From a bacterium (GTDB taxonomy: Bacteria; Armatimonadota; Fimbriimonadia; Fimbriimonadales; Fimbriimonadaceae), in the NCBI GenBank assembly GCA_013823945.1, contig PNMZ01000001.1:310001-374000 (forward strand): a DNA stretch of 64,000 bases, read 5' to 3'. Numbering within the stretch: the stretch's first letter is position 1; each line of letters opens with the position of its first letter. Shown here one piece after another: positions 1,983 through 32,244 of the stretch. A program made the translations under genes and the position numbers. The notes under the pieces are model-generated. The model saw nothing but the letters and a program-made list of their open reading frames with translations, did not search any database and was not told the DNA's origin.

Positions 1983-3617
1983 CTACGGAATTCCGAAGCC
2001 CGGCGTTCCTTCGTCAACAATCTTCGGTGTAACGAAGATGATGAGTTCAGAAGAACTTTGTCGGGATTCTTTCTTTCGGAACAATTGACCGATGACCGGC
2101 AAATCGCTCAAAAGCGGAATTCGGTTTTGGTTATATGAATCCTGCTTCGTGGTCAATCCACCGAGCGCAACCGTTTCCCCGTCCTTAACTCGCATTGCAA
2201 CGTTGATCGTTTGGAATGCAGTTTCAGGGAATTGCTGACCATCTGGGCTGGTTCGGAAACCAGTGATGTTCGTAATCGTCGGCGACAAGGTCATGGTGAT
2301 TGTGTTGTCACCATTGATCCGTGGTCGAACTGCCAAGGTGGAGTTCAAGTTCAGCGGAATTGGAACCGTTGTCGTGTTTGTAACACCGTTGCCAGAAACA
2401 ACGTTGTTGGTTACAAAGATGAACGTTTGAGTACCCGCCGTCATGACTGCCGTTTGGTTGTTCAGAGTTCGAACGATCGGTGCCGTTACGACCCGACCGT
2501 CACCATCTGAAAGCAATGCTCGGAGTCGCATCGAAACGTTGCCCGTTGCGTAATTCAGGAAGACAGGATCGGTTGCGTTTGCAAATCGTCCCGGTGCAAC
2601 TCCAGCAAAAACTCCTCCGCGCTCGTAGTTCCAGTCAATCCCAAGACTCTTGTCAATGCTTCGAGTCGTGGTAACAAACTCAACCTTAACGGTGACTTGC
2701 TTTGGAGCCTTGTCGATTCGGCTCAAAATGTCAAGCAATTCTTGGTAAGCCTGGCTCGTACCACGGAAAATCAGTTCGTTTGTTGCCGGGTTGTAGGTGA
2801 GGTCGGTTGTTCCAGCCGGAAGCAGACCTTGTCCGCCAGCGTTAGCACCTGCAACAGATGCGCCGCCACCTTGCTGACCGCCACCACCACCTAGGTTTCC
2901 GCCGCCTGCTTGACCGCCGCCACCACCTAGGTTTCCGCCGCCCGCTTGTCCGCCGCCACCGCCACCACGTTGAGGTGCATCACCACCTGGCAACGTCAAT
3001 CCAGATTCAGAGGACGTGGGTTGATTCAAACTCCCAAATGATCGATTTTCTTGGCTCAGGCGATTCCGATTAATGAAATCTGACGGTGCCCCGAAAGTCG
3101 AGCTGTCCATGCTCTGCGGATTTGATCGCCGTGCCAGATCCCACATCTCTTCAAAGACTCGATCTGGATTCTTGACCGCCCCATCGACCAGAAGATCGAT
3201 GATGTCTCTCGGGTCAGCTTGCTGAACTTTGATTTCGCGAATAATGAGTCGGTCGTTATCCACTTGAGCATTGAGAGGCAATGCTTCGCGCTTGGTACCG
3301 AAGTAGATGACAAATACGCCATCTTCGTTACGTTCTGCGTAACCCCCTGCAGCTTGGCAGAGATACTTGATCGCAGTCTCAGCCGAAACATCATCAAGCG
3401 ACAAATTGATCTTCTTGAATTCGCCTGCATTCTGATTGCTAATAACAAACTGCAAACCTGTTTGCTGTGAGAGCAAACGAGTTGCCGTCAAAAGATCAGC
3501 ATCCTTCAAGTAAAGATCAACCTTCGTATCGAGTGCTGAACTCTGCGCAATTGAGAATGCCGCGACTGCACCCAGGCAGAGCGTCAAAACTGACTTTGTG
3601 AAAATTCCTTTCTTCAT
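1983..3617 (-). CDS. pilQ: Type IV pilus secretin (PilQ-like)
   Basis: Outer-membrane secretin forming the channel for the pilus fibre. A signal peptide (MKKGIFTKSVLTLCLGAVAA...) is followed by an STN-like domain (about residues 29-104), a secretin N1-type domain (about 120-160), a long Gly/Gln linker with 12-residue repeats (about 220-265), a second small N-domain (about 280-310) and the C-terminal secretin domain ending with VKDGETVALGGL, PLLSDLPVIGQLF and ELIIFVTPKIV. The start is ATG at 3617 because GAGGAGG lies eight bases upstream; the reading frame stays open further upstream only because it lies against the Gly-rich end of the neighbouring gene. No AMIN domain is seen; a separate STN protein precedes it. 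Last gene of the pilM operon, with a terminator after it. Confidence 0.93.
   Translation of the reverse strand: MKKGIFTKSVLTLCLGAVAAFSIAQSSALDTKVDLYLKDADLLTATRLLSQQTGLQFVISNQNAGEFKKINLSLDDVSAETAIKYLCQAAGGYAERNEDGVFVIYFGTKREALPLNAQVDNDRLIIREIKVQQADPRDIIDLLVDGAVKNPDRVFEEMWDLARRSNPQSMDSSTFGAPSDFINRNRLSQENRSFGSLNQPTSSESGLTLPGGDAPQRGGGGGGQAGGGNLGGGGGQAGGGNLGGGGGQQGGGASVAGANAGGQGLLPAGTTDLTYNPATNELIFRGTSQAYQELLDILSRIDKAPKQVTVKVEFVTTTRSIDKSLGIDWNYERGGVFAGVAPGRFANATDPVFLNYATGNVSMRLRALLSDGDGRVVTAPIVRTLNNQTAVMTAGTQTFIFVTNNVVSGNGVTNTTTVPIPLNLNSTLAVRPRINGDNTITMTLSPTITNITGFRTSPDGQQFPETAFQTINVAMRVKDGETVALGGLTTKQDSYNQNRIPLLSDLPVIGQLFRKKESRQSSSELIIFVTPKIVDEGTPGFGIP
2885..2962 (-). repeat. 36-bp tandem repeat encoding a Gly-rich linker in the secretin
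   Basis: Two near-identical 36-base units plus part of a third (CCTAGGTTTCCGCCGCC recurs at a spacing of 36) encode a repeated 12-residue block containing QAGGGNLGG. It lies between the N-domains of the secretin. The period is a multiple of three, so changes in copy number would keep the frame. Confidence 0.75.
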
Positions 3618-3648
3618 TCTGTGTTCCTCCTCAGGATCATTACGGGCT

Positions 3649-4308
3649 TTAGAAGCCGCCACCACCGCCAAAGCCGCCGCCGCCGAAACCGCCGCCGCCA
3701 TTGCCTCCGCCGAATCCGCCGCTTCCACCGCCAAAGCCACCGCTTCCGCCGCCAAATCCGCCTCCATTGTTGCCACCGAAGCCACCGCCGCCACCACCGA
3801 ATCCACCGCCGCCGCCGCCAAAGGCAGGAACGGAGCTCCTTTCGGGTTCAGAACCAAAGGTAGCTTGGTCTAGCAAAATGTCAAGAATCATTTGCGGATC
3901 ATTCAAAAGAATGATCGGAGGGAAAAACTCAGCCGCTTGATTTTGAGTTCCAAAGTCGGGAGTCGTATTCGTAGCTGCAGTAGGATCCGGCTTTCGGATG
4001 ATATTGAAAATGTTCCCTTCTTCGCGCCATGTTGCATCAACTTGGGAAAGAATCCCGCGCAGTGCAGTTTTAAACTGCACGTTCTTCAAAGAGACCGTTA
4101 CAACACCTTGAACATCCGGAGCAACCGTGTAGTTCAAAGATGTTGATCGGAAAAGCACCTTGAGCGCGTCCCGAATGTCTGCCTGATCCAACTCAATCGA
4201 CTCGATGATGATGTTGTTGGGATCATCCTGAGCCTTGACCTGCGCCGGTGCCACAAAGAGCCCCAAGGCAAGTGCAAATGTCAATGCTGCTGCAACTTTT
4301 GTTTTCAT
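3649..4308 (-). CDS. Secreted STN-domain protein with Gly-rich tail (secretin accessory)
   Basis: A 219-residue protein with a signal peptide (cleavage likely after VKA), one secretin/TonB short N-terminal (STN) fold at about residues 33-110 (IIIESIELDQADIRDALKVL... VSLKNVQFKTALRGIL), a second segment that looks like the start of an N1 domain (FFPPIILLNDPQMILDILLDQ), and then about 55 residues that are almost only Gly with Phe, Asn and Ser. It ends without a secretin channel domain. It lies directly upstream of the secretin gene in the same operon, with GAGGA ten bases before its ATG. I infer that it supplies an extra periplasmic ring or gate for the secretin. A truncated former secretin is the alternative. 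Confidence 0.75.
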   Translation of the reverse strand: MKTKVAAALTFALALGLFVAPAQVKAQDDPNNIIIESIELDQADIRDALKVLFRSTSLNYTVAPDVQGVVTVSLKNVQFKTALRGILSQVDATWREEGNIFNIIRKPDPTAATNTTPDFGTQNQAAEFFPPIILLNDPQMILDILLDQATFGSEPERSSVPAFGGGGGGFGGGGGGFGGNNGGGFGGGSGGFGGGSGGFGGGNGGGGFGGGGFGGGGGF

Positions 4309-4373
4309 GTTCTTGCGTTCCTCAACGATACCTGTTTCTAACTTGTTTTCGCACTCAATTTCAATCTTCGACT

Positions 4374-5090
4374 CTATTTGTCGCCTTCATCATCCGGGCC
4401 ACGTCCACCACCACCGCGAGGATCATTCCCCCCGCTTCGACCACCTGCTGGCCCGCCAGTGGGAGCATTGCCGCCACCCAGCTGACCAGGCAGACCCGCC
4501 TGTAGTGGAACAACTACCTCTGAAGGAACCCGGCTAGGGTCACGTTTAAAGACAGCTTTTTCGGTGTCAATAGACACGCATCGCCATTCGGTTCCTGCTA
4601 CCGGCTGACCGGGAACAATGGTGTCCACCGACCCGCCTTGATCAAGAAGGGCAATTACAGCACCTTCACTGACAACAATTCCCGCCAGACGCCAAGCCGG
4701 AGTCGGAAATTGTTGGGGTCGAGTGTCTGCCTGACCTGACTCATCAGGAAATTCAAATTCTTGGGAGAAGCCACCTGATTCAGTCATGAGGCGCTCCAGC
4801 ATTTGCTCCTGATCAAATCGACGCTCAGCCGCTAGCAAGCTAAAGGCGTCCGATCGGCGAGATGACCAGTTCTTTCTCTGGGCAATGTCAAAAACTGAAT
4901 CCATGTCGGCATAAGCCATGTCCGAAGGAACTGAAACCCCTGCTTGCGCATCGGGCATGTACAATTCACGAACCTTGGGGTCAATCGCCCCCGTCTTTGC
5001 ACTCGGCCCTGGACGGGCTTCGGTATCACATCCCGCAACCGCAAATGCAACTGCGACCAATGAAATAAGCTTGAGCATATCCTTCATCAT
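4374..5090 (-). CDS. pilP: Pilus assembly lipoprotein, PilP-like
   Basis: A 238-residue lipoprotein with signal peptide and lipobox VAGC at about residue 20. The middle-to-C-terminal region (WRLAGIVVSEGAVIALLDQG followed by IVPGQPV) has the short beta-strand pattern of PilP and of the GspC homology region, which bind the secretin. The tail (about residues 205-238) is Gly/Pro-rich and ends in an acidic DDEGDK. Two in-frame ATGs follow a GAGG site; the first overlaps the pilO stop codon (TGATG). Position after pilN and pilO supports the call more strongly than the sequence does. Confidence 0.75.
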   Translation of the reverse strand: MMKDMLKLISLVAVAFAVAGCDTEARPGPSAKTGAIDPKVRELYMPDAQAGVSVPSDMAYADMDSVFDIAQRKNWSSRRSDAFSLLAAERRFDQEQMLERLMTESGGFSQEFEFPDESGQADTRPQQFPTPAWRLAGIVVSEGAVIALLDQGGSVDTIVPGQPVAGTEWRCVSIDTEKAVFKRDPSRVPSEVVVPLQAGLPGQLGGGNAPTGGPAGGRSGGNDPRGGGGRGPDDEGDK

Positions 5091-5905
5091 CAATCCTCAT
5101 CATCCCGGCCACGCCCACCACCACGGCTGTCAGTCGCTGGCACTCCGCCAGGTACGCCAACCCCTGCTGGAACTGCACCAGGAGCGACACCTGCCGCGCC
5201 TGCCGCACCTGCGACAGCTTTATCTCGCGCCATCTGAATTGTCGGCGAAATTTTCTTTCCTCGCACAAAAGCGACCAACGTTACGTTATAACGTGCTGTC
5301 AACTGTGGTGCGGTACCCGTTATAACCAAACCGTCCGCAACTGCAAGATAGTTCGGCATCCGACTCCAAGCCCGAATATTCTCGGCAATTTGCGAGAACG
5401 TTCCCCTCACTTCCACTTGACCCATGTCAAAGATAGCGACCGGATACGGCGTATTGGGATAGTTATAGTAACTAGACATGATCGTTTCCGGATCATCTGT
5501 CGGCGCAGGAACCAGAGGCCCGGTTACAACTGTAATTCCGCCCGCCTTCACCTGGCGGTTAACCGCCGACTGTACGTTATCTCGGAACAACAAAGAATCA
5601 ACCGTCAATTGATAAGGATTGACCGCAACGTTCACCCCACCCGCCGATACACTTGCCGGAGGAGTCTTGACTCGAACTGTTTGATCCCACTTATCGTTAA
5701 TTTCCTTAACCTTTGCCTGCGCAGCCTCAACACGTTTAACCGCCTGTGGAAGCTTCCCTCCTTCAGCATCAAGCTTTTCACCCCATTCGGAGTAAAGCCC
5801 CGCGTCGTTCATATTCGGCAAGAATCGCTGGAAAAGACCGTAAGTCAATCCAATGACCCCGAACATCAATCCAATCATCAAAATTGCAAGTGGTGATAAT
5901 TTCAC
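5090..5905 (-). CDS. pilO: Type IV pilus inner-membrane protein PilO-like
   Basis: A 271-residue bitopic protein: one transmembrane helix (about residues 6-26), a coiled-coil (about 40-75), then a ferredoxin-like periplasmic domain. The C-terminal 35 residues are Gly/Ala/Pro-rich, ending GGGRGRDDED. I chose the GTG start at 5905, seven bases after the pilN stop codon and behind a run of six G; the reading frame stays open upstream but that part lies over the pilN coding sequence. PilO pairs with PilN and forms the inner-membrane alignment complex with PilM and PilP. Confidence 0.82.
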   Translation of the reverse strand: MKLSPLAILMIGLMFGVIGLTYGLFQRFLPNMNDAGLYSEWGEKLDAEGGKLPQAVKRVEAAQAKVKEINDKWDQTVRVKTPPASVSAGGVNVAVNPYQLTVDSLLFRDNVQSAVNRQVKAGGITVVTGPLVPAPTDDPETIMSSYYNYPNTPYPVAIFDMGQVEVRGTFSQIAENIRAWSRMPNYLAVADGLVITGTAPQLTARYNVTLVAFVRGKKISPTIQMARDKAVAGAAGAAGVAPGAVPAGVGVPGGVPATDSRGGGRGRDDED

Positions 5906-5909
5906 TGTC

Positions 5910-6800
5910 TTATTTCCCCCCGTCCGCATCGGGGCCACCAGCCCCTGTTCTAGGTGTACCAGGTCCCGGAGGTGCTCCACCTCCACCCGGCACACCGCCA
6001 AATCCATTCGGCGGTACCGATGCTGCACCTGCCGCACCCGCTCCCGCAATCGTTGCTCGCGGGTCAGGCGTTTGAACATTGCGCGCCAATGTTACAGTCA
6101 TCGTGACTTGCTTGTAGCCCGGCATCGCCTGTCGCGCCCCTTCCACGGCACCGAAATTGCCTTCATTCAAAAATCCTCGAGGCTCACCCGCCGCACGTGC
6201 AATCATTGCCTCCATACGATCAAGTGGATCTGTAGGCAACGGAGTTTGACCCGGCTTGACTGGGAGGCCAGTTTGATCAGCTTCCGTCAAATTTGGCACC
6301 GACGCTCGGTCAAGCTGGTAGCCAGCTCGGCTAACTGCAACCGCATCAGGAATCTTCCAAAGCGCAACGGAAAGATCAGCATACTGCCTGAAGGTTTCCA
6401 AATAACCGTTCAAGGTCACCGTCGTCTGCTGAGGACTGGCCGGAACCGCTGAAATAGAATCAATTCGGTAATAAGCGGGCACATGCTTCAAAACATCCGC
6501 GTACAGATCAACGTAAGTGCGGTTGTGCGCGATCATTGCCTCCGAAAGTGCTTGGCTTCGGTTAATGATCGCCGCTTCAGCAATTTGCTTGTCGGCATGA
6601 TCTGCCGTGGCTTTTGCGTCAACTGCTCGTTGCATCTTGGCTTCGGCATCAGCCTTGGCAGTTGCAAGAGCACCCTCAGACATAACCGTCAGTCCGACGC
6701 CTGCCAAAATCCCAAGTACCGCCAAGAGAAGCGCAACGAAGATCATTCCCTTCGCTGCCCCCGCTTTCGATACGCTTTGTGGAAGTAAGTTAAGTTTCAT
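5910..6800 (-). CDS. pilN: Type IV pilus inner-membrane protein PilN-like
   Basis: Begins MKLNLLPQSV, the N-terminal N-L-L-P motif by which PilN docks into PilM. One transmembrane helix follows at about residues 19-41, then a long helical region and a ferredoxin-like periplasmic domain (about 105-165). At 296 aa it is longer than typical PilN (about 180-200 aa); the extra length is a 60-residue insertion after the periplasmic core and a Gly/Pro-rich tail ending GGPDADGGK. Thirteen bases separate it from pilM. Confidence 0.85.
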   Translation of the reverse strand: MKLNLLPQSVSKAGAAKGMIFVALLLAVLGILAGVGLTVMSEGALATAKADAEAKMQRAVDAKATADHADKQIAEAAIINRSQALSEAMIAHNRTYVDLYADVLKHVPAYYRIDSISAVPASPQQTTVTLNGYLETFRQYADLSVALWKIPDAVAVSRAGYQLDRASVPNLTEADQTGLPVKPGQTPLPTDPLDRMEAMIARAAGEPRGFLNEGNFGAVEGARQAMPGYKQVTMTVTLARNVQTPDPRATIAGAGAAGAASVPPNGFGGVPGGGGAPPGPGTPRTGAGGPDADGGK

Positions 6801-6813
6801 TCAGTCAACTGCC

Positions 6814-7995
6814 TCAAAAGCCAATATGCATCCCATTTCCAATCGCCATCGCGAAGGAACTCTTCGTTTCCTCCAGCCGTGCCGGATCACCACTCTTCAA
6901 ACTCATGTTTACGTTTCGGAAGGGATCCATTCTTTCAACCGTCATTCCAACCGCCGAAGTCAAGAACTTGTCCAGATTCTTCAACTGAGCCGAGCCCCCT
7001 GTGATCATCATCATATCCACATCACCGCCCTTGTTCTTGTAATAATCCACGCTACGGCGTAATTCTGAGACCAATTCGTCCAGTGCAGGCGCAACAGCAG
7101 CGTAGAGAGGATTTTCTTCTACCGGAGCCGGTGTCGCCGCCGGAGGAGCATCGCTCGCCATAGTCTGCTCACTCGGGTCTGCAAACGGGTTGTAGCTCTG
7201 AACCGGAGCAGCCCCCGCAAAAGGATTGAATGAAGGAGCCGGGGCTGCATCTTCAGGCAATACGAGTTGCTCATGCTTCGCTTGCTGAGCATCCGCGAAT
7301 GAGAGACTTCGAGAATCCGCAATCGCCCGCGTGAACATTTCCCCACCCACCGGAACCGTTCGCGAGAAAAGCAACCGCTCATTCTTGTAAATGTTGATCG
7401 ATGTGGTCTTGTGACCAATTTCAGCAACGCAAATCGTCTTATTCGCCGCTTCTTGCGCATACCCCACATCAAGAAGCCGAAGCAAACTCAACGGCTCAAC
7501 ATCAAGTGCCGCTGCCTTTTTGCCCGAACGTTTTAAAATATCAACGTTCATATCAACTCCCGAACGAGTCGCAATTGCCATCACCACATCCAAGTTCTGA
7601 GATGCCGGATCAGCCAACGGATAAGCTTTGAAATCTGTCTCAACTGTGCTTTCAGCAAAAGGAATGTTTCGAGTGAATTCCCACGCCATGTGATCTTTTA
7701 ACTCACTCTCGCTCATGTTCGGAACTTCAAGCGGACGAACCAAAACCGAGCCCTGACCGTTAAGAGAAACCACGGCATTGGATTCAGAAGATCCTGATTC
7801 CATAATCGCTTGCTTAACAATTGAAACCAACTGATCCGGATCGTTGATCCCCACGTGATCAACTGCGCCTTCCGGCACCGGAGCCATCCCCAACGCCGTA
7901 ATCGTCGGTTGGTTACCTTGCAGGCGGATTTCCGCCACCTTCACCGACTGGCTGCCGATGTCAATTCCCAAAACGCTGTTCAGTCTTTTCGCCAT
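6814..7995 (-). CDS. pilM: Type IV pilus ATPase-fold protein PilM
   Basis: Actin-like cytoplasmic protein that binds PilN and links the alignment complex to the assembly motor. The first phosphate motif GIDIGSQSVKVAEI is at residues 10-23, the second phosphate region at about 188-220 (CVAEIGHKTTSINIY), and the adenosine motif MMITGGSAQL near residue 325. It is 393 aa against about 350 usually; the excess is a Pro/Ala-rich insert at about residues 247-296 with two NPF motifs (SFNPFAG, SYNPFAD). First gene of the operon, with a promoter candidate 34-63 bases upstream. Confidence 0.93.
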   Translation of the reverse strand: MAKRLNSVLGIDIGSQSVKVAEIRLQGNQPTITALGMAPVPEGAVDHVGINDPDQLVSIVKQAIMESGSSESNAVVSLNGQGSVLVRPLEVPNMSESELKDHMAWEFTRNIPFAESTVETDFKAYPLADPASQNLDVVMAIATRSGVDMNVDILKRSGKKAAALDVEPLSLLRLLDVGYAQEAANKTICVAEIGHKTTSINIYKNERLLFSRTVPVGGEMFTRAIADSRSLSFADAQQAKHEQLVLPEDAAPAPSFNPFAGAAPVQSYNPFADPSEQTMASDAPPAATPAPVEENPLYAAVAPALDELVSELRRSVDYYKNKGGDVDMMMITGGSAQLKNLDKFLTSAVGMTVERMDPFRNVNMSLKSGDPARLEETKSSFAMAIGNGMHIGF

Positions 7996-8190: not shown

Positions 8191-11100
8191 CTAAGGTCGC
8201 CGAGAGATTCTCGGCGTCGTCTTCGGAGCAAGGGTTTGCATGTAAATATCCTGCGCACCCGCCCGCGTCGAACTCCAAACCATCCAGATCAGCGGCGGTC
8301 GACGCTCGACTAGGGATACATTGTTCGTTTCAACCCGATCCATTGTTATGGAAAGGTCGCCTTCCTGACCGATCTGTTCAATCGGCACAAGCTGCTCACC
8401 CTGTTCAATAATCAATCCAACGCGTGCTTGAACTTGCTGATTGAAGACAAACTGACCATTCGCATCGATACCTGTGTAAGTCACCGTTACAACTGTTCCT
8501 TCTTCTTCCGCTTGCATGTAGATCTTTCCACCAACTGGGTCAATCTGAACCACATTCGATCCCGATCCAGTCAACCCTGTTATGTTGAGTCCAACTGCCG
8601 ATGTGTCTGAATTGACCGCAATTGGCATTGGCAAGTGAATTCCAAACCGAAGCGAACTCATCACGGGCCGTGCCGCTGCAGAGCCATCATTGGAACTACG
8701 ACCAAACGCTGCATAGAACCGATCCTGACGCAACAGATTCGCGGGCAATGGATTACTTGGTGGTGCAATGGGTGTTCCAAAGGAATTCACCCAAAAGTTC
8801 ATATCCTCTCTCAACCTTCGCGATGGAACTCCGTTGTCAAAGACTCCGAGCAAGCGGTCGTCAAACACAACTGACGCACCTCGGTAGTTCAGTCCGGCAC
8901 TCGCATTCGCAGTCGCAATCAAACCAGAACCAGTTCGGAACGCTGTCGTCGCCCCACTCACCCGAATAAATTTCGGCGAGTAAGCGATAAAGACTTGACT
9001 GTTCCGCCCCAGAACCGTTCCCGATAGCCGAACCGAACCCCGTCGTGCATCTACATAGACTTTGCCGCCTCGCGGACTGCCGAAAACCATTTCTCGGGTT
9101 TCTCGGTCAATCAGCCGCTCTCGCATATCCGCCGGAACTGCCGTATCATTGTTGATTAGTCGGCTGAGAGCACCTGTTCGAGCGTCAACAAGGAAGAGCT
9201 GGAAGTTATCAACATCCGCTCGTCCCATCGCAAAATCCACGCCCGGTGCCCAATACATGCCCGTCGTTGCATCGTATTCCAGTCGATCAAACCGGTCTTC
9301 AAAAATGTTCCATGTTTGATTGGCAACTGGCATTCCGTTCACTGCTACTGGCAACTGACCCATGTAGGCTTCTGAGTTCTGCCGACCGCGTACCTGACCC
9401 GTGAAGAACATTTCAACCGCTGTACCACTTGCCGAAATTCCAAGCGGAACCCGACGCGCACTCGCAGATATGCCAGAGATTTCTTCAAAAGTTGCACCAA
9501 CACCCAGCGACTGAACTCCGTTCCATGTCGCTCCATTGAACACCGCCGAGTAAATTTCTGTTCGACCAGATGACTGAGCCGGATAGAACGCCGCCACACT
9601 TGATCCTTGTTGGATAATTGACGGCTTTCCTTTTTTGGAGGTCGGATCCGTCGCCAATGGGTAAATCCCATTAAGTGGACCTGATGGCAGACGAGTCGGC
9701 ACTCCCGCAGAAATTTGGAGGTCAACAAGCATCAGCTGACTCAAAGGAACAACGTTGCCTGTTCGATCGCGTTTAGTTGTTTCACCAACAAAGGCCATGA
9801 ATCGGCGAGCCTGACCAGCCCGTGTTGGTGTTGCAACATCAATTGGGTCAATAGCTCCGTGTCCAGAGAATGTCGGATACAAGAACCGAGCGGAACTTTC
9901 ATCCGTCGGCCCGGTGAGCGATTCACCTGCATTAACCGCGAACCAATTGGTCCACTCGTTTACTGCGGGCAACGTAGTTGAAGGCTCAATCCAAGTGGTC
10001 GTGGGCACTGTGCGAGAAAGGTTCGCCGCGAGAGGGCTTTGAGTCGGACCAAATGGGGTCAGTCCAGCCGTCGAACCGGCAAAGTGAATCCGCCAAATGC
10101 TTGGCGTTGTACCATCGGCCGCCGTTTTTCCACGAGCAAAGATTGAACTACCGCCGACGCCCAATCGGTTCGAACTGAAGGCGATGACCTTATCACCTTG
10201 ATCCGTCACCGCTAGCGTAGGCTGGCGGTTCGACCAGTCAAATCCTGGATCAGCTACCGGAATGTTCTCAAAAATCGATCGTGTCTTTGCTGTGGGTCGA
10301 GTTGTAACCCGCGTCTCCCGGATATTGAACTTCAACGAAATTGCCGGATCAGTGTATGCCTCCGGAACCAACCCTGAAGCTCCCACTTGGAAGCCCAAGG
10401 TTGGGAAGTTCGCACCGTAATCCGCCGAACCCGCAATCGTATCCTCAAATAGGAAGATATCGCGGACATACGAGCCCACCGGAGCCCCAAGCGGAACCGC
10501 AATTCCAACAAATGGATCACCCGCCGGGAACGCCGTTGTGTTCGCAATGAGAGTGCCCGAAGTCACATTCAAATTGCTATTCTGACGTCGTCGAGGATTC
10601 GTTGAGAGCCGCGTCGGAGCCGGATCGCCCGGGCGTGGTTTTTGCAGCGCAATCGCCCCCGCCGGATCAATTCCCGCCCGATTCGTCGGGCTCAAATCTG
10701 GATCCAAATCACTGAACAACGTATTCGCCGCATCAAACCAGGCCAACTCATGCTCTGCCGGAGCGAAAAGCTCAAGCGGGCGTTCAACTTGGTTGAACGG
10801 ATTGACCAACTCAGCCAATCGCCGACTCACCCGTACGTTGAGCAAGTTGACGTTTCCTTCATTAAAGCCCGTCACGTTTTGGAATTGCGGAGCATTCGGA
10901 TCCAAGAATCCCGCGTTGAACGGAGCAAAACTATTGAACTGACCTGGATAAACCGCGTTGCCCGTTCCTGAGTTATAGTGTCCACCACCGCCCGGAATCG
11001 AACCCAAGTCAACCGTTCGCGTCGTCGTGACAATGTTCTCATCCGGAGCAACATTCGCTGCCATGGTGAACCGTCTTGCTGAGTCAGAATCAGAGAATCC

Positions 11101-14100
11101 AGCCTCACCCGTTTCAACGTAAATCAAATTCTCAGAAACATATCCAAACGGACGTGTTCCTCCTACCTGTGTTGCTGGCTGATATTGCGGAATCGCCATC
11201 CGCATACTGAAGACCGTCGGCCGAAGGGTCCGTGTAAGACCTGCTTCGTAACCCAATCTCGTATTGTAAGTCGAACGATCCAAAGCCGTCGTCGTCGGAG
11301 GAACCAATCGAACTCCACCAAAAAGCGGATTTTCCGTATCACCACCGAGCGACTTCGCGATCTGCAATCCACCCCGATTCATATCTGGATAGTCCTGACT
11401 GATATTCGGGAAGCTCGTCGGAAAGTCTTCAAATCCCGCATAAGCCGCCGGCAGGGGCTTGTAAACCCCCGCTTGTGCAGCGTTTGTCGGAACCGAGTTG
11501 CTCGCCGGTTGCCAAACCATGTCGTTGGCCTGAACCCGAACACCGGTCAATCCGACCGTGTTCCGATTGAGCAAAACCATCAGTGACCGGTCAACAACCT
11601 CCATTGCTGAGACCCCGGTTGAGTTATGAGACACCGGATCAGTACCGTTGACTCGGGAGCTAAATCGTCCGCCTGGAACTCCAAGCCCCGCACCCGGATC
11701 AACAAACGCATTGGTCCATTTGTTGAACGGAGTCCCACCTCCGGTATATCCCGGAACCAGGTTTTGGCTGACCAAGATATTCGCTGGGTCAGTGGTCACC
11801 CCAGCTTGATTCAAAATCACACCCCCCGAATCTCGGAACTGAATTCCAAAAGGAAGTGCAGTGCGAATTGATGATACAAATGGAGGTGGAACTGTCGGCA
11901 ATGCCAAAGTCTGAACATCGCCACGCACTCGCAGCTGGACTGCCCGAACTTCCACATTGAGGTCACCAGCCCTTGCGGAGTTACTTCCCGAAGGCGAAAT
12001 CGGCAATTTGAAAAATGCATAGCCGCTTTCTTCCGGCGTCGGTCCACCCGAAGCATCTCTAACGCCTACCGTCGCGGCGCGGCGCGACGGAGTTCCGTCT
12101 CCCACAAGCCCAGCTTGGATTGAATATCCAGCTGTTTCGACAACAGTCGTCGCATGAATATCCTTCACCAAAATGTGGAGCGTCTCACCGTGCTCAAAAT
12201 TGCGCCGTTGAATCTGATTCGCCTGGTACGTGGTCAAATCACCGTATGTGACCGTGCCCGCTTGCGCAGCTTGCTCCAAAGCTTCGTAATCTTCGGGCGA
12301 CAAGAGCACAACGTCATCCTGCTCAATCATGTCATTCAGCAACGTCTGATCAGGATCATTCGGATTCGCTGATTGACTTCCTGGCGGGATACCAGGGGTC
12401 AGAGGCGGTACCGCATTGAGATCATCTTCGCTTGAAAAGGCATAAAGAATCCCCCCAGCATCCGCCGCATAAATATGCGTGCGATTCGCCAGGAGACCCG
12501 CCGCATTCGGCCATCCCCCAACCGCCAAACTCGCAAGTTGCGGCTGCCCGTCTTCACCTTCCAAGAAGTAACCCCAGTTTCGGCGATTACCATTGATATT
12601 GAGCGAACCATCCGCATAGTAACCAAGCAACGCACCCTGCGTACTGGAAACAAGCACCGTTGGAACCGCATTATCAATGAATGTCCCGGCTGGATTGAAC
12701 GTGCGCATGTAAGCGAATCGAACCCCGGTTGAACTACCACTCGTGACCGAAAACTCCTGCCATTGAATCGCACCAGTAGCCGCATTGAGACTTGTGATGA
12801 ATCCGCCACCATCAACCATGTACAAAGAATCGCTGGCTACAATCGGTGCTTCCACTGCCGCTGGCGAACCAGAAATTCGACCGAACGGCGTAACGTTATC
12901 TGCGCGCTCGGACCGCTGCCAATCGAGAAGACCCGTGTCTTCATCAAGCGCAACCATGCCTTGAACGCCCGGTCCGTCAACGTCTTCCGTTCCTACGTAA
13001 ACCCGACCAAATGCAACCACTGGAGTCGTTGTCATTGCACCAAGCGGAGGATCGATCGCCGCCGGATATTGCCACAAGATGTTCGTCGTGCGGGTCGCAC
13101 CATTACCTGCTGCATCAATTGCAAATATCCGACCTGCATCCGTAGCGACAATGATCGCCGGAGTCCCTGCTACATTCGCCAGGGCCACAGAACCAACAAT
13201 CTTGCCGATCCCGGAAAGGGACATCGGATTCGTAGGATTGCTCGGATCATAATCTGCCGGCCATGTCCATCGGCGCTGGGTAGTGCCATCGCCACGACCA
13301 TTCATATCGAGTGCATAAACCCGACCGTTCAAACCACCAATATAGGCTACGTCAGGACCTGTGGCGTCACTCACCAACGCTGAACTCATGCCAAACCCCG
13401 GAGGCATTTCGGCAATTCCACCATCCTCTGCCAATGCAGAGTTCGGATCAGCATCCGGGTCTTGGCTCGGATATGTCCAAAGGACATTCGGAGCCGTTCC
13501 GGTTACTTCGTCTCCATGGGCTTCCATCGCCACAATCGAACCGTTTTCGCGCGCCGCCAAAATCACGTCAATGACGCTTCCGCCAACTGTCGCGACTGTC
13601 TGAACCGGAGTCGACGTAATACCCAAATCAGCATCACCGACGAACCGAATTGCATCCGCATAAACTGACCGGTTGTTTGCAACGTCGTTTCCATCGCCCG
13701 AGCTCAGCACCCGAACGGTTAAGGGATTCAAAACCGTATGAGCAAAGCCGTCTGGCTGGTTCGGCAATCGAATCCAGTTGTTAAAACTTGCCTGGTTGAT
13801 CGTACGGGTCGCCACGACCGCTCCACCTTGCAAAATCTGATAAGTCACCGTCCGCGCCAAATCATTTGGCCCGTCATTATTCGGCAAATGAACCTCGATA
13901 AAGTAAGTTCCAGGATTTGCAACCGGTTCCCACTCCACGAAGCTCGTCGGAGCCGCTGTCGCCGGAATGATCGCATAGTTCGGACCAACCGAGTTGAATG
14001 TATTATCGTCAATAAAACCTGCGCCAATTGACGTCCCTGCGCTCAAATTGTCACTTTGTCGGAAAATCAAATTCCTTGGATAAGCCGGATTAATCCCACC

Positions 14101-15207
14101 AGAAATCCAGTTCTGACGTTCAACCGCATAGCGATCCGTCTCAGACTGGTTCAAGTTAAATGGTCGAACTGCTGGCCAACTCCACACCATATTCCGGCGC
14201 AATGGTTCACCCGCATCCACAACCTGTCCATTGTGGGTAAACGAACTCAGAACCCCAAATCGAAATTCCTTGTTCAACGCTCCCACAAAAACAGGTTCAT
14301 TCCGGGCCGAGACCACACGCTGATCGAAAACCGTCGGTTGTGCATCGAGTCTGGGCTCGGTCAGTTCACCAACTACAGGCGAAGCAACATAGGTTCCCGC
14401 TGAACTGGGGCTCTGACCAACCGCCTTCACCGCATCAGCATAAACGACGTCCTGACCAGGCTGATCCGTATTATCAACTAAAGTTCCAAAGTCATTCCGG
14501 CGGTGAACATTGTACAGCGTGACTACGACCGATCCACCCAGTGCTGGCCGTGCAACGAATGGAGCAGTAGAGGTATCGCCAAGCGGTGCATAACCACCCG
14601 CTTGAGTCCGCATATCAACCCAGAAGAAACGAGTACCATTCGCATCTTCAACTCCATAAAGCTGAAACGCCGGTGTAAAGCGCAAATCGTCATTTATTGA
14701 CGTATCAATGTCTGTCGGACCGATCGGCAAGTTGACTTCAACGTCAAATTCATTCCCTGCCCCAAGGTTATCCAAAGTCCAAGTGAAAGCCGCTGTTGCC
14801 CCAACTTGTGGATTCGGGCCATCATTCCCACCCGTAGTCGAAGTCACCGCATAGCGGTAAGGAGCCTGCGCAATGTTGAGCTGGAGATACCCTCCCGCCA
14901 AAGTAAAGTCTCCGTTCGCCGGGTCAACAAACACCCCGAGCGAGGTCCCCGCATCCGGATCGTCATTATCAACTTCGTTGCCAGTTTCAAAAATCGGATC
15001 CCACCACCGCAAAAAGCCCCGGCCTGCATTCCCCCAAGTCGTTTCCGGAACAGCCACCGCTGGTTGAGGCGTACTCCTCCCTGCGCGCTCGTTACTCCCC
15101 GCAAACGTTCGGAAATCCTGGGCATACGCCACGCCTCCGATGACTGCCGCCAAAGCCAAAGCTCCGGTTACTGGCCACAATTTCGTCCGTTTACTGGTCT
15201 TCTCCAT
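8191..15207 (-). CDS. Giant secreted beta-propeller protein (PilY1-position, second)
   Basis: A 2338-residue exported protein with a signal peptide cleaved near AYA-Q (about residue 30). Residues of about 540-860 form PQQ-like propeller blades, for example GRVYALDMNGRGDG, GRIFAIDAAGNG, VYVGTEDVDGPG and FITSLNAATGAIQW. The rest is beta-rich, with few Cys and Lys and no transmembrane anchor at the C-terminus. I chose ATG at 15207 (AAGG eight bases upstream); a GTG at 15225 with GGAGAG is also credible. It is the last gene of a seven-gene transcription unit running pilD, pseudopilins, giant proteins, with a terminator after it. In fimU-pilVWX-pilY1 operons this is the place of the tip adhesin PilY1, which is also a large propeller protein. 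Function as pilus-tip adhesin is inference. Confidence 0.8.
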   Translation of the reverse strand: MEKTSKRTKLWPVTGALALAAVIGGVAYAQDFRTFAGSNERAGRSTPQPAVAVPETTWGNAGRGFLRWWDPIFETGNEVDNDDPDAGTSLGVFVDPANGDFTLAGGYLQLNIAQAPYRYAVTSTTGGNDGPNPQVGATAAFTWTLDNLGAGNEFDVEVNLPIGPTDIDTSINDDLRFTPAFQLYGVEDANGTRFFWVDMRTQAGGYAPLGDTSTAPFVARPALGGSVVVTLYNVHRRNDFGTLVDNTDQPGQDVVYADAVKAVGQSPSSAGTYVASPVVGELTEPRLDAQPTVFDQRVVSARNEPVFVGALNKEFRFGVLSSFTHNGQVVDAGEPLRRNMVWSWPAVRPFNLNQSETDRYAVERQNWISGGINPAYPRNLIFRQSDNLSAGTSIGAGFIDDNTFNSVGPNYAIIPATAAPTSFVEWEPVANPGTYFIEVHLPNNDGPNDLARTVTYQILQGGAVVATRTINQASFNNWIRLPNQPDGFAHTVLNPLTVRVLSSGDGNDVANNRSVYADAIRFVGDADLGITSTPVQTVATVGGSVIDVILAARENGSIVAMEAHGDEVTGTAPNVLWTYPSQDPDADPNSALAEDGGIAEMPPGFGMSSALVSDATGPDVAYIGGLNGRVYALDMNGRGDGTTQRRWTWPADYDPSNPTNPMSLSGIGKIVGSVALANVAGTPAIIVATDAGRIFAIDAAGNGATRTTNILWQYPAAIDPPLGAMTTTPVVAFGRVYVGTEDVDGPGVQGMVALDEDTGLLDWQRSERADNVTPFGRISGSPAAVEAPIVASDSLYMVDGGGFITSLNAATGAIQWQEFSVTSGSSTGVRFAYMRTFNPAGTFIDNAVPTVLVSSTQGALLGYYADGSLNINGNRRNWGYFLEGEDGQPQLASLAVGGWPNAAGLLANRTHIYAADAGGILYAFSSEDDLNAVPPLTPGIPPGSQSANPNDPDQTLLNDMIEQDDVVLLSPEDYEALEQAAQAGTVTYGDLTTYQANQIQRRNFEHGETLHILVKDIHATTVVETAGYSIQAGLVGDGTPSRRAATVGVRDASGGPTPEESGYAFFKLPISPSGSNSARAGDLNVEVRAVQLRVRGDVQTLALPTVPPPFVSSIRTALPFGIQFRDSGGVILNQAGVTTDPANILVSQNLVPGYTGGGTPFNKWTNAFVDPGAGLGVPGGRFSSRVNGTDPVSHNSTGVSAMEVVDRSLMVLLNRNTVGLTGVRVQANDMVWQPASNSVPTNAAQAGVYKPLPAAYAGFEDFPTSFPNISQDYPDMNRGGLQIAKSLGGDTENPLFGGVRLVPPTTTALDRSTYNTRLGYEAGLTRTLRPTVFSMRMAIPQYQPATQVGGTRPFGYVSENLIYVETGEAGFSDSDSARRFTMAANVAPDENIVTTTRTVDLGSIPGGGGHYNSGTGNAVYPGQFNSFAPFNAGFLDPNAPQFQNVTGFNEGNVNLLNVRVSRRLAELVNPFNQVERPLELFAPAEHELAWFDAANTLFSDLDPDLSPTNRAGIDPAGAIALQKPRPGDPAPTRLSTNPRRRQNSNLNVTSGTLIANTTAFPAGDPFVGIAVPLGAPVGSYVRDIFLFEDTIAGSADYGANFPTLGFQVGASGLVPEAYTDPAISLKFNIRETRVTTRPTAKTRSIFENIPVADPGFDWSNRQPTLAVTDQGDKVIAFSSNRLGVGGSSIFARGKTAADGTTPSIWRIHFAGSTAGLTPFGPTQSPLAANLSRTVPTTTWIEPSTTLPAVNEWTNWFAVNAGESLTGPTDESSARFLYPTFSGHGAIDPIDVATPTRAGQARRFMAFVGETTKRDRTGNVVPLSQLMLVDLQISAGVPTRLPSGPLNGIYPLATDPTSKKGKPSIIQQGSSVAAFYPAQSSGRTEIYSAVFNGATWNGVQSLGVGATFEEISGISASARRVPLGISASGTAVEMFFTGQVRGRQNSEAYMGQLPVAVNGMPVANQTWNIFEDRFDRLEYDATTGMYWAPGVDFAMGRADVDNFQLFLVDARTGALSRLINNDTAVPADMRERLIDRETREMVFGSPRGGKVYVDARRGSVRLSGTVLGRNSQVFIAYSPKFIRVSGATTAFRTGSGLIATANASAGLNYRGASVVFDDRLLGVFDNGVPSRRLREDMNFWVNSFGTPIAPPSNPLPANLLRQDRFYAAFGRSSNDGSAAARPVMSSLRFGIHLPMPIAVNSDTSAVGLNITGLTGSGSNVVQIDPVGGKIYMQAEEEGTVVTVTYTGIDANGQFVFNQQVQARVGLIIEQGEQLVPIEQIGQEGDLSITMDRVETNNVSLVERRPPLIWMVWSSTRAGAQDIYMQTLAPKTTPRISRRP

Positions 15208-15225
15208 GGGAATTACCTTCTTCAC

Positions 15226-18200
15226 TTACTGTCTCTCCGCAAATACTGGTCGGGAAATACCGCGAATGCCTTGCACCGGCGGTAATTCAAACAAAATGCT
15301 GAGTGCGTTGAATCCAAGATTCGCCCGCGTCACGCTGTAGCTCGGCTGGCGCGGATCCGCAACGGCTCCAATCGATCCATCAATCACCACAACTTCGCCA
15401 GCAAAAGGCTCGTTGTTCTTTTTGGTGCCCGCATAACCGTTGACAACCAAAACGTCACCTGATTCCAAGCGGCGTGCATGCATCGGTCGGAATCCTTCTG
15501 GATTCTGCCCAAGCTGACCAATCACAAATGGTCCCGCAGATCCAATCGGCCGGCGCATGAATTCATAAACCTCAATCGGCAACATCCATCGCACTTCCCA
15601 GCGGTTCAACGTAGTATTCTCAACGACTTCAAACACGCCGCGGTCAGTGGAAAGCATCGCCGTCAAAACCGGACCCGCGCCCAAGTCAATGTATCGGACA
15701 CTCACAGAAGTCAATCCGCTGACATTCAACGTACGTTCTGCTCGCGGTTGTGACAGGAACGAATAGCTTCCCGCCGAAACCGACATCAGCACATTCGCAG
15801 GCAAAGCCGGAACCGTAAACTCATTGATGACCTTCGTTTGCGGACCATCATAGATCACAACCCCACCGAAGCCACTCGGATTATCCGTTCGAGCTCCGGG
15901 GTTCGTATCGAGACCAAACGTCTTCGCCGAAGGCTGGACGTTGTTAAAGCCCATCGCATAGGCCGTTCTTGGTGTACCGCCCACATCAACCGTCGCCCGG
16001 CTGATCGTGTTATACGCATAGCGCTTGCCACTAAACTCTTCCGGCGAATGCCACCACACGATGCTTTGCGCTGGCGTCAGGCCCGCTTCGCTTTCCAAAC
16101 CGCCTTGGTATTGCACAACTCCGGTCACCCGGCCCTGTGCATCAAGCGTATAACGATCAATGACCTGCACAACTCGGTTATTCCCCGCATCAGCGATCAA
16201 CCAGTTATCCCATCGCTCGTCAGTAATCGTTCTGTAACCGCTTTCACTCGGGAAGAACGTATTCACATCCGCCGCTGAAACAAATGTCGTCCAGAACTGA
16301 ATATCCTGCGGATTGCGCAGTTGATTCGAAGAATTCTGCGGCAAACCATTAATCGCACGGTCCGGGTGGAATCGCAATCGTTGAACCGCCCGCAATTCTC
16401 GACCACTAGCGTCTATCCGCGCCACCAGGTTGTTGCCCGGATCGGCAAAAACATAGCCGTTATTTCCGTCAGGATAAACTCGATTGGGCGCACTCATTCG
16501 GCGCGGTCGCTCGGCAACACTCGGTTGATTGGCATTCACTTCACCCGTGTTCTCCAACGCCCAAAGCGGATTACCAACTGGGTCAAATCGCCCGATCCGC
16601 CCGGCATCAGCAATCAAGAAATCGCTGCGCTCAAATACCGTCGTGTTCACATCGGATGTCACTGCAATCGCACCTTCGCCCACCGCAAGCCCAAAAATCT
16701 GTGGCTCTCCGAGCAAAGCGGCTTGCAAAAGTCGAATTCGGAAATCCTCACCCGAAGTCACGCCTTTCAACTGGGGCCATCGAATCGACTTCGCTGGCGT
16801 CACATTGCTAAAGTCATTCACCGTTACCGGCCCGTTGACTCGAACGTTGTAAAGCTGACTCACCCATGGCCGTGCACTGGTGCTGACCAAGTGGGTGTCG
16901 TCAGGACTAATCCGACGATCCGCCCCAATGAGCAATCCATCAAAAGTAGGAATCGCGCTAAAGCCATTCAAGATCAGCGACGGCAAAGCACTGGCCCCCG
17001 CAATAACCATTCGCTCTCCCGCAACTACCGGCCCCTGATCGATGCGATAACCGTTCGCAACGGTGTAGAAGTTCACGTGGCTCCATCGACCCGCTGCCGC
17101 ACCGGGGAAGAATCCACCCGAAGCAAGCGGAGCCTCCGGCTCGTAAATCGTGTCGGTCTGACCATCCCTGGAAACGATGACCGGCAGATTGTTGGAGAGG
17201 CAAGAGTTCATCCCACCGTTAGTCGAGGCCGCCAAAGTTCGTAACCTCACCCGAGACCGAGTCGAATTCGGAATCGGTTCAATTGCGAACGCGTTCGGCC
17301 CAAGAGTGCTGAACAATCCCGGATTGGGGACATAGCCGCTTCTCGCCATATCCGGCTGCTTCAACAGCAACCCTTGGTTCTGACCACTGCCAACTTCCGC
17401 AATGAATTCTGGATCGTCTGGTGAAGCTTCCACACTCAAAACCACTCCCGTTGGCACGCCAAATCCACCGAACGACTTCGTTGAATTCGCTGCAACATAA
17501 AATGCATCACCTGCCGTCGCCAAACCGATCGGATTAAAGTTAATCATCTCTCGATTCAAAAATGGAATCAATCGAACAAGATCGTCCTCATCTGCAAATG
17601 CCGCCGGATAACCTGCCGAGGATCCCAACGCTCCAAGGTTGTTAATCCGAGAATGAAATTCAAACCTTGATTTGACATAGAATATCCCCTGTCCTTCTTC
17701 CTTAATGTTATAGAACGATCCACCCGTTGCCGAACCAACGATCAGGCCAACATTTCCGCTCGCCGCAACCGCTGGTGCGGCACGCAAATCAAGCTGCGGA
17801 ACAGATGAGTCGACAACTTGAATTTGACCACGCACGAGAGCACTCATCGGATTGACACCGTTTGTCCAATCATGCATGTAGTCAACTCGATAGCTAATGT
17901 CATTCACCCAGTCAATACCCGAGGCCGCACCCGCCGCTGAGAGCTGCAATTGAATCACCCCATTCGAGGGCTGTAGAACAACACCGGTGAAGTTTGTATT
18001 AACGAAACTTTGATCGAAGGGAACACCTGCAGAATTCAAGAACTGCACTTTCAAACCACGAGGAGATCTATCCCCCGTTGCCGTCACAATTCTCATATTC
18101 CTTGCCGCCGCTCGAGTAGTAATGTTGATCGCCGTGCCAACCACATTTACTTGGAATGGAACTTCTCCCCTTGCCCCAAGGTACATACTCGACAGACCAG

Positions 18201-19884
18201 CAGTCCTGCCTGTACCAACATTTCTGTCCGTACCGACATATGCAACCAAGTCAAGCCCACCCGACGAATCCTGAATCGGGATATAAGCCACCGCTGGACT
18301 CGCACCGGGCAAACCATAGGTTCCCGCGCCGGCACCGCTCCAGAAATAATTACCGAGCGTATTTCCATCGTCATCAATATTCCGTGACTCATCACCCGCG
18401 CCTTCCGCCGCCATCTTCGGATTCACCATCCACAGACGACCTTCATTCAGCGTCCCTGCATCAGCAATGTAGAGCACACCTTCATGGTAAGTCGGCGCAA
18501 AGACCTTCGGCTGAACTCCCGGTCCACCCGCCGGAGGAGTAATGCTCGCAAATGGCGTTACCCCCGTGCCCACGGTCTGGTTCAAATTAAATCCATGCAG
18601 GCGACCGTCAAGCGATTGCACCCAAACCTGTTCCGCAATCGGTGATCCTGGAACCTCAACATATGTCGGCTCAGAGATCGTTCCCAAAGACGCACTCGAC
18701 CAAACACGGTCATAAGCTGTCCCGACCGGATCAACAAACCCGTCATCATCATTCCCATCACGATCTAAATCTGTGTCAGTGTTCGCATCGTATACGAAAA
18801 GCGTCCCGCCCACACTCGTAATCAGGCGACCATTCGCCAAAATCGGTGTCCCTTTGGATCCCGCAAAAGCCGGAGCCTGGAGCCGTCGAATCGCCGGCAT
18901 CGAAACCGTTACTGCCGTCGCACTCGATCCACGCGCCCCACTCTGGGCCGATGCAAACCGTGACCGTGCTTCCAAAGCATTCAAAACGAGCTTCGCTGAA
19001 GCAAAATAAGCCGCATCCCGACGACCTCTGTTGGAGATAACACCAGTATTGGGAGCGCCCACACGGTTCCCGTTCAAAATCGCACTTGTTCCTCGTGTTG
19101 TGAGCAGAACAAAACCATCTCCAATCTGAGCAAAACCAACAACCGTATTACCGTTGGAACCAATCACCGTTTCAAGCTTAAAGGAATCAAGCTCAACGCC
19201 TCGAGCAATCGTTGCCGCTGGTGTCGCACCAAAATTCACCGGGCTCGCCGTTACCGTACTCGCGCCATCGGTCAAAGCGTACGCATCCGCAAGCGAAATT
19301 CGATTCGGCCCGAGTGTGAGCGGATGAAACTGATTCAGATTCAAAAACCCATTTCCAAGCGTCCGTGTCACCGGAACCGGGAAGTTATTCATCACATCAA
19401 CATCGGCACCACCACCAACGAAATCAACCCAAAGCAAACCACCCTTGTCAACGAACCGGCGCAACTTCTCCCGACCTTCCGAAGAAATCGAAATCACACC
19501 ATTCACGCTCAAAAGCAACACATCGTATCGGGCCAAGCTGTCACTCGTCTCACTTCGGAGGTCAACCATCCAGTACGGAGCATACGTTTTGTTGATCGGA
19601 TCACCCGGAGTACCCGGATAAATCGTCGCCGCATCTTGTGAAAAAACACCATTCCCGCTTCCAGAATCAAACCGCCAATCTGCCGGTTTTACTGCTCGAT
19701 CACCGTCCAATACACTCCAAACGTGCGGCGCATTAGAAGGAATAATCGTCCCCGCCGGATCCCTCAGCACAACCACCCCGGCCTTGATCGACACCGTATC
19801 GGTTGAGTAAGTAACGGGCTGTGCCTGCGCAGCAATTGCGCAGGCCACTAAAGCACCTAAGGGAATTATGCGAGTCAATTTCAC
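15226..19884 (-). CDS. Giant secreted propeller/NHL-type protein (PilY1-position, first)
   Basis: A 1552-residue exported protein; signal peptide ends near AAQAQ (about residue 22). The N-terminal part (about 110-160, YDVLLLSVNGVISIS and GGLLWVDFVGGG) resembles the amidotransferase-like Rossmann fold seen in large surface proteins of the DUF4159 kind. A propeller with an acidic Ca-loop-like stretch (DTDLDRDGNDDDG, about 370) follows, and NHL-type blades lie near 1180-1330 (WLIADAGNNRVVQVID). The GTG start overlaps the stop of the PilX-like gene (GTGA), so it is translationally coupled to the pseudopilins. It ends 18 bases before the next giant protein. A role in the pilus tip complex is inferred from position. 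Confidence 0.78.
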   Translation of the reverse strand: MKLTRIIPLGALVACAIAAQAQPVTYSTDTVSIKAGVVVLRDPAGTIIPSNAPHVWSVLDGDRAVKPADWRFDSGSGNGVFSQDAATIYPGTPGDPINKTYAPYWMVDLRSETSDSLARYDVLLLSVNGVISISSEGREKLRRFVDKGGLLWVDFVGGGADVDVMNNFPVPVTRTLGNGFLNLNQFHPLTLGPNRISLADAYALTDGASTVTASPVNFGATPAATIARGVELDSFKLETVIGSNGNTVVGFAQIGDGFVLLTTRGTSAILNGNRVGAPNTGVISNRGRRDAAYFASAKLVLNALEARSRFASAQSGARGSSATAVTVSMPAIRRLQAPAFAGSKGTPILANGRLITSVGGTLFVYDANTDTDLDRDGNDDDGFVDPVGTAYDRVWSSASLGTISEPTYVEVPGSPIAEQVWVQSLDGRLHGFNLNQTVGTGVTPFASITPPAGGPGVQPKVFAPTYHEGVLYIADAGTLNEGRLWMVNPKMAAEGAGDESRNIDDDGNTLGNYFWSGAGAGTYGLPGASPAVAYIPIQDSSGGLDLVAYVGTDRNVGTGRTAGLSSMYLGARGEVPFQVNVVGTAINITTRAAARNMRIVTATGDRSPRGLKVQFLNSAGVPFDQSFVNTNFTGVVLQPSNGVIQLQLSAAGAASGIDWVNDISYRVDYMHDWTNGVNPMSALVRGQIQVVDSSVPQLDLRAAPAVAASGNVGLIVGSATGGSFYNIKEEGQGIFYVKSRFEFHSRINNLGALGSSAGYPAAFADEDDLVRLIPFLNREMINFNPIGLATAGDAFYVAANSTKSFGGFGVPTGVVLSVEASPDDPEFIAEVGSGQNQGLLLKQPDMARSGYVPNPGLFSTLGPNAFAIEPIPNSTRSRVRLRTLAASTNGGMNSCLSNNLPVIVSRDGQTDTIYEPEAPLASGGFFPGAAAGRWSHVNFYTVANGYRIDQGPVVAGERMVIAGASALPSLILNGFSAIPTFDGLLIGADRRISPDDTHLVSTSARPWVSQLYNVRVNGPVTVNDFSNVTPAKSIRWPQLKGVTSGEDFRIRLLQAALLGEPQIFGLAVGEGAIAVTSDVNTTVFERSDFLIADAGRIGRFDPVGNPLWALENTGEVNANQPSVAERPRRMSAPNRVYPDGNNGYVFADPGNNLVARIDASGRELRAVQRLRFHPDRAINGLPQNSSNQLRNPQDIQFWTTFVSAADVNTFFPSESGYRTITDERWDNWLIADAGNNRVVQVIDRYTLDAQGRVTGVVQYQGGLESEAGLTPAQSIVWWHSPEEFSGKRYAYNTISRATVDVGGTPRTAYAMGFNNVQPSAKTFGLDTNPGARTDNPSGFGGVVIYDGPQTKVINEFTVPALPANVLMSVSAGSYSFLSQPRAERTLNVSGLTSVSVRYIDLGAGPVLTAMLSTDRGVFEVVENTTLNRWEVRWMLPIEVYEFMRRPIGSAGPFVIGQLGQNPEGFRPMHARRLESGDVLVVNGYAGTKKNNEPFAGEVVVIDGSIGAVADPRQPSYSVTRANLGFNALSILFELPPVQGIRGISRPVFAERQ

Positions 19885-29532: not shown

Positions 29533-29600
29533 TCTCTTTACTTCCTTGGCATCCGTGCCAAACCGCAAGATACCAGGTTCAACCTAATCCGGTCCACCTC

Positions 29601-30897: not shown

Positions 30898-30904
30898 GGT
30901 TCAT

Positions 30905-32179: not shown

Positions 32180-32188
32180 GTGTTACTT

Positions 32189-32217: not shown

Positions 32218-32244
32218 ATTTGTTCAATTGCGTTCCGACCAATT

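Follow-up and report, generated by a model that had tools for sequence, protein, structure and literature searches.

On the minus strand of the window, i.e., the whole 64,000-nucleotide stretch that was analysed, positions 34032 to 1983 form one type IV pilus locus, which runs from pilB to the PilQ secretin and is followed by aroK and aroB (Table 1). The locus holds the type IVa pilus (T4aP) set of PilB, PilT, PilC, PilD, PilM-N-O and a secretin. In profile searches of the window proteins, PilC matched at 1.6e-124, the PilT family lay above its cut-off with 485.8 bits, pilM also exceeded its cut-off, and the secretin gave PilQ/GspD matches; PilB scored 1.6e-180, yet remained under its equivalog cut-off. 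PilN, PilO, the PilP-like lipoprotein and the STN-domain protein were assigned by position and sequence, the basis for PilN and PilO being position and form alone. The presence of PilT together with separate PilM and PilN argues that the locus encodes a retractile, T4aP-like machine and not a plain secretion system.

Other features of the region were also observed. PilB (32245-34032) has an N-terminal MshE-type c-di-GMP-binding domain (NF053729, 7.3e-11, over cut-off), and pilus extension may therefore respond to c-di-GMP. Two proteins make up the secretin part: a separate STN-domain protein, the tail of which is glycine-rich (3649-4308), and PilQ (1983-3857), which has a glycine-rich stretch of its own. 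At 39279-40043 and 40114-40776, the window encodes two short, divergent proteins that resemble pilins and have nearly the same N-terminus; they are perhaps of the DUF1559 type and are possible major pilins. Outside the window, a second set of pilM, pilN, pilO, PilP-like and secretin genes lies beside an ExeA-like ATPase gene (G000, contig C7:91780-98963; L151/L152); this set is without pilins or giants nearby, and its pilM outscores that of the window.

Table 1. Features of the pilus locus and domains of the two giant proteins (positions in the window).
Feature	Position	Strand	Remarks
pilM, pilN, pilO, PilP-like lipoprotein, STN-domain protein, PilQ secretin	1983..7995	-	
GIANT2 (P0001), 2344 aa, exported	8191..15225	-	golvesin-type domain, PQQ propeller, beta-rich middle, C-terminal six-bladed propeller
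Predicted sialidase/arabinanase-shaped six-bladed propeller, GIANT2 ~1579-2337	8215..10491	-	
PQQ/BamB-type propeller, GIANT2 634-932	12430..13326	-	PQQ_2 E 1.9e-12
Golvesin C-terminal-like domain, GIANT2 408-529	13639..14004	-	Pfam Golvesin_C, weak in window protein (0.0014)
GIANT1 (P0002), 1552 aa, exported	15226..19884	-	pilY1 position; DUF4159-like domain, PQQ/BamB-like propeller, NHL-like propeller
Predicted NHL-type propeller, GIANT1 ~1086-1507	15364..16629	-	
Predicted 8-bladed PQQ/BamB/YxaL-type propeller with insertions, GIANT1 ~328-1087	16624..18903	-	
DLDRDGNDD, GIANT1 372-380	18745..18771	-	exact PilY1 calcium-binding motif 1, Dx(D/N)xDGxxD
DUF4159-like domain core (alpha/beta, GATase-like), GIANT1 113-159	19408..19548	-	Pfam DUF4159 E 3.6e-4
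PilX/GspK-like minor pilin, 1098 aa	19881..23177	-	presumed GIANT1 carrier
PilW-like minor pilin, 750 aa	23143..25395	-	N_methyl E 8.6e-6; TIGR02596 1.2e-5
PilV-like minor pilin, 692 aa	25395..27473	-	TIGR02523 PilV, E 0.0016, under cut-off
GspG/FimU-like pilin, 304 aa	27529..28443	-	TIGR01710 E 3.9e-11, under cut-off
Prepilin peptidase PilD	28501..29568	-	A24_N_bact E 1.5e-28; Peptidase_A24 5.6e-11
pilC, pilT, pilB: platform protein, retraction and extension ATPases	29662..34032	-	scores in the text

Between pilD and pilM, an earlier sequence-only reading had described a GspG/FimU-like pilin, PilV-, PilW- and PilX-like proteins and two giants, and the window ORFs agree with it in gene order, strand and lengths. 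The genes overlap or nearly touch, as it had also stated: the PilX stop and the GIANT1 start share four bases (GTGA), and the GTG start of GIANT2 lies immediately 3' of the GIANT1 stop. This overlap and the abutting of the two giant genes make translational coupling likely. The sizes of 1552 and 2338 residues were likewise borne out, the latter counting GIANT2 from an ATG at residue 7 (2344 residues from the GTG). By inspection, both giants have Sec-type N-termini (AQA-QP and AYA-QD), in line with the claim that they are exported.

GIANT1 consists of a DUF4159-like domain followed by two predicted propellers. DUF4159 matched 18 of 18 GIANT1 relatives (best 9.3e-7), each single sequence weakly; GLMA_2nd and DUF4350 gave single or double weak matches among GIANT1 sequences, and a literature search on DUF4159 found no papers. 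In an AlphaFold2 model of residues 320-1519 (m7e7435c81e33; 57 sequences; mean pLDDT 85.5, pTM 0.78), the first propeller aligned structurally with the designed protein Cake8 (Z 21.0, rmsd 2.7 over 310 of 320 residues) and with YxaL and BamB (Z ~19), and the second with the NHL domains of SOQ1/NHLRC2 (Z ~20) and TRIM71/TRIM2 (~19). All matches listed for the model are of the 8-bladed PQQ and NHL types, and the PilY1 structure 3hx6 is not among the matches listed, although GIANT1 may still resemble it. The GIANT1 profile matched PDB chains of Pizza6 (9.2e-9, the best) and of the NHL protein Thin (0.002), and its matches to NHL chains are independent of the structural alignment to NHL propellers. 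Single-sequence searches of GIANT1 and GIANT2 against PDB sequences gave no match.

Golvesin_C was found in 12 of 17 GIANT2 relatives (best 1e-35), and profile matches of GIANT2 to BamB-type PDB chains reached ~1e-11. In the model of residues 1145-2344 (m5064250cd595; 40 sequences; pLDDT 83.0, pTM 0.78), the C-terminal propeller aligned with 3h6j (Z 23.2, rmsd 3.2 over 310 residues). A sialidase-type enzyme was considered for this part and dropped: in the window protein, a search for Asp boxes (SxDxGxTW) in the C-terminus gave one degenerate match only, at residue 1600, instead of several. Because Asp boxes are missing, we claim for the GIANT2 C-terminus a shared shape and not an enzyme. The last ~175 residues are the piece of GIANT2 most often detected in distant genomes, and RGD occurs twice in the window protein. 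The PQQ- or NHL-like blades that the sequence-only reading saw in both giants thus reappear in the family searches (PQQ_2 in GIANT2 and in 17/17 relatives, NHL in 4/18 GIANT1 relatives), and structure prediction, the check it proposed, gave propellers in both modelled giants.

The giants are a real, phylum-wide feature of the Armatimonadota pilus locus. Single-sequence searches recovered relatives of GIANT1 in 176 and of GIANT2 in 127 of 291 genomes of the phylum, and a GIANT1 profile matched 208 of the 237 genomes that are at least 85% complete and 172 of the best 194. A conserved-peptide scan of one genome per species (~85,000 species) returned 67 loci, practically all labelled as Armatimonadota or unnamed bacteria. 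One record titled Propionibacteriaceae bacterium UBA6122 (L142) has the Armatimonadota-type pilus gene order, and its title is probably wrong. The closest named relative fetched is Armatimonadetes bacterium Uphvl-Ar1, the GIANT1 of which is 95% identical.

Homologues of the giants adjoin pilin genes. With this location and the predicted propellers, neither of the two outcomes named as refuting by the sequence-only reading was observed. The order GspG-PilV-PilW-PilX-GIANT1-GIANT2-pilM recurs in 86 fetched loci, as far as each stretch reaches. When a strict limit is set on distance, PilX is the immediate upstream neighbour of GIANT1 in 13/14 phylum representatives and in 59/66 additional loci, and the misses are mostly due to over-extended ORF starts, with PilX still listed, or to contig ends. 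GIANT2 lies directly downstream of GIANT1 in 16/19 and 47/57 loci. One unrelated reverse gene separates the giants in three loci (L135, L137 and L148), and in five loci of divergent lineages (L134, L140, L143, L145 and L146) GIANT1 follows PilX with no adjoining GIANT2; GIANT2 is therefore not essential to the scheme everywhere. Thus, synteny and fold support well the proposal that a pair of giants takes the PilY1 position in most lineages, but it does not extend to those in which GIANT1 stands without an adjoining GIANT2. G133 and G134, both reduced genomes of 1.5 Mb, are without GIANT1, GIANT2 and any strong pilM; this joint absence is a small co-loss test and is consistent with the giants belonging to the pilus machine.

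Several features of GIANT1 recall PilY1/PilC (PF05567; 3hx6). First, GIANT1 is the gene that follows fimU-pilV-pilW-pilX, with GIANT2 coming second; the pilY1 locus of Cupriavidus (L149) has the same V-W-X-Y1 order. Second, both proteins are exported and have an N-terminal alpha/beta domain followed by a propeller. Third, GIANT1 contains calcium-binding motif 1, defined for PilY1 as Dx(D/N)xDGxxD (PMC13190605). The sequence-only reading had seen no obvious PilY1 motif in the giants, which is wrong for GIANT1: 49 of 60 GIANT1 sequences have an exact copy in the corresponding position, and when GIANT1 was shuffled 5000 times, the motif arose in only 22 cases. It is absent from GIANT2. In the GIANT1 model, the motif forms a loop that joins two strands of blade one (model strands 42-47 and 74-78); when this blade is aligned with a PQQ blade of GIANT2, the loop stands out as an insertion in GIANT1. 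We suggest that this putative loop of the first propeller probably holds a calcium ion. In the PilY1 proteins of Cupriavidus and Aeromonas, by contrast, the motif comes immediately ahead of the strand VYVGD, i.e., in a different inter-strand loop. GIANT1 and PilY1, proteins of one kind, thus share the motif at different places, and convergence and rearrangement are both possible.

The minor pilins are oversized. Median lengths in the family are 1026 residues for the PilX-like proteins, 660 for PilV and 736 for PilW, several times the usual size; PilX of Cupriavidus has 181 aa versus 1098 aa for its counterpart in the window. The N-terminus of the latter, GQTLVIA, is without Glu5, and none of the 61 recognised PilX-like N-termini, all of them prepilin-like, has this residue. 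The apex subunits GspK and PilX also lack Glu5; such a PilX sits at the apex (PMC7541494), where it is bound to PilY1 (PMC7541494; PMC13190605). PilX_N (PF14341) did not match the PilX-like proteins, GspK models gave one weak match in 14 relatives, and no solved structure was matched by sequence. A comparable case is ComZ of Thermus thermophilus, a tip pilin into which a large domain is inserted (PMC6561018): ComZ, too, is a GspK/PilX-like pilin of unusual size for which a place at the tip of the pilus has been argued, whereas the Armatimonadota proteins are longer still and are followed by separate giants. The PilW-like N-terminus weakly resembles the Verru_Chthon cassette pilin-like proteins C and D (TIGR02599, TIGR02596), but the match covers the pilin N-terminus only, with scores far under cut-off; a literature search on this cassette found no papers.

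Altogether, position, export, propeller build, calcium motif and a PilX without Glu5 indicate that GIANT1 should do PilY1-like work at the tip. We therefore favor, with a probability of about two in three, a model whereby this part of the main T4aP-like pilus locus encodes a tip complex in which GIANT1, on PilX, does the job of PilY1 and GIANT2 is a further tip subunit. In this model, PilD would process the GspG-, PilV-, PilW- and PilX-like prepilins, and the processed pilins would nucleate the filament with the PilX-like subunit at the apex, as GspK and PilX do elsewhere. After Sec-dependent export, GIANT1 would sit on the oversized PilX, prime assembly together with the minor pilins and travel through PilQ on the tip as the pilus grows. 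There, it would bind surfaces, probably with a calcium ion in the first-propeller loop, and GIANT2, attached to GIANT1 or next to it, would be a second adhesive subunit in a distal or accessory role. We infer the physical complex, its tip location, calcium binding and adhesion in part from Myxococcus and Pseudomonas, in which PilY1 and the minor pilins prime filament assembly, remain at the tip and adhere, and in which PilX contacts PilY1 (PMC7541494; PMC13190605). By the same analogy, the giants may be adhesins or mechanosensors, as the sequence-only reading had proposed. Several observations count against the tip model. Neither giant shows detectable homology to PilY1, the calcium loop has another place in the blade, and GIANT2 does not adjoin GIANT1 in some lineages. 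Sequences of the form Dx(D/N)xDGxxD are, on their own, common in secreted proteins. According to a published report, Fimbriimonas ginsengisoli is non-motile and probably uses its pili for attachment (PMC4072686).

An alternative that we consider unlikely is that GIANT1 is a true, very diverged PilY1 orthologue with a propeller changed beyond sequence recognition, and GIANT2 a lineage-specific addition. The shared gene position and calcium motif would fit such an origin, as would the alpha/beta domain ahead of the propellers, which is also found in vWA-type PilY1. However, PF05567 is silent on GIANT1 and GIANT2 at E up to 1, and on 18 relatives of the former and 17 of the latter, yet it matches a real PilY1, that of Cupriavidus, at E 4e-9; this PilY1 also matches 3hx6, at 3.5e-11. 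In hhalign comparisons with a PilY1 profile built from two sequences only, the probability was 0.5% for GIANT1 and 33% for the PQQ part of GIANT2. The architectures also differ: PilY1 has one seven-bladed propeller and a vWA or DUF4114 domain, whereas GIANT1 has two propellers, of PQQ and NHL type, and a DUF4159-like domain instead, and its calcium loop lies between two later strands of the PQQ blade. Cysteines are few, with 2 in GIANT1 (0-2 in the comparison) against the 7-30 reported for PilY1 (PMC13190605). Unlike PilY1 loci, moreover, those of Armatimonadota usually have a second giant after the first. Thus, neither giant is a PilY1 by these family tests, and either may work like one. Across the phylum, PF05567 exceeded its cut-off in none of the 291 genomes, in searches in which the controls were silent and Cupriavidus PilY1 served as positive control instead. 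Together with the prevalence of GIANT1, this result argues that GIANT1 fills a vacant pilY1 place. A literature search found a single paper that names both PilY1 and Armatimonadota; PilY1 occurs in it once, in connection with cryoconite metagenomes.

We regard it as similarly improbable that the locus encodes a T2SS-type secretion machine with the giants as its substrates, either released or left on the cell surface, rather than parts of a pilus tip. Filament genes of GspG- and GspK-like type, a PilQ that scores like GspD and the plausibility of substrates encoded beside their machine speak for this possibility, and Armatimonadetes have been assigned a T2SS (PMC6668835). The T2SS pseudopilus tip of GspI, GspJ and GspK likewise has a GspK-like apex subunit without Glu5 and a GspG-like pilin. 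In contrast to that system, the Armatimonadota locus has a PilT-family retraction ATPase that scores over cut-off and separate PilM, PilN, PilO and PilQ, and the giants keep strictly to the place right after PilX throughout the phylum, which is the pilY1 pattern. That the giants are periplasmic or outer-membrane assembly factors, i.e., BamB-like propeller scaffolds that stay at the base, is very improbable: the first propeller of GIANT1 and the PQQ propeller of GIANT2 are near BamB/YxaL in fold and sequence and pilM comes directly after the giants, but the large size and the golvesin-type and sialidase-shaped domains better suit surface binding, and inspection found no lipobox or anchor.

PilY1 is treated as a widely conserved tip protein of type IVa pili. 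Phylum-wide, Armatimonadota have one or usually two giants in its place, which standard PilY1 searches miss, and they therefore probably build a much larger and differently made pilus tip. Its tip protein is probably non-homologous to PilY1 or extremely diverged from it. A bolder interpretation, to which we give somewhat less than even odds, is that Armatimonadota swapped PilY1 for a tip of two proteins that evolved independently, is carried on oversized minor pilins and converged on the calcium motif. Such a tip would have four propellers, with GIANT1 supplying one of PQQ and one of NHL type and GIANT2 another PQQ propeller and the six-bladed one. If true, this two-protein tip would rank with the largest tip complexes predicted for type IV pili. 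A giant in the PilY1 place with the same calcium motif suggests that a tip may be recognisable by place and logic and not by family, makes it possible to test which features a tip protein requires, i.e., a propeller, a calcium loop and contact with PilX, and suggests inspecting the pilY1 position wherever another phylum seemingly has no PilY1. For Armatimonadota themselves, it provides a likely role for two of their largest conserved exported proteins.
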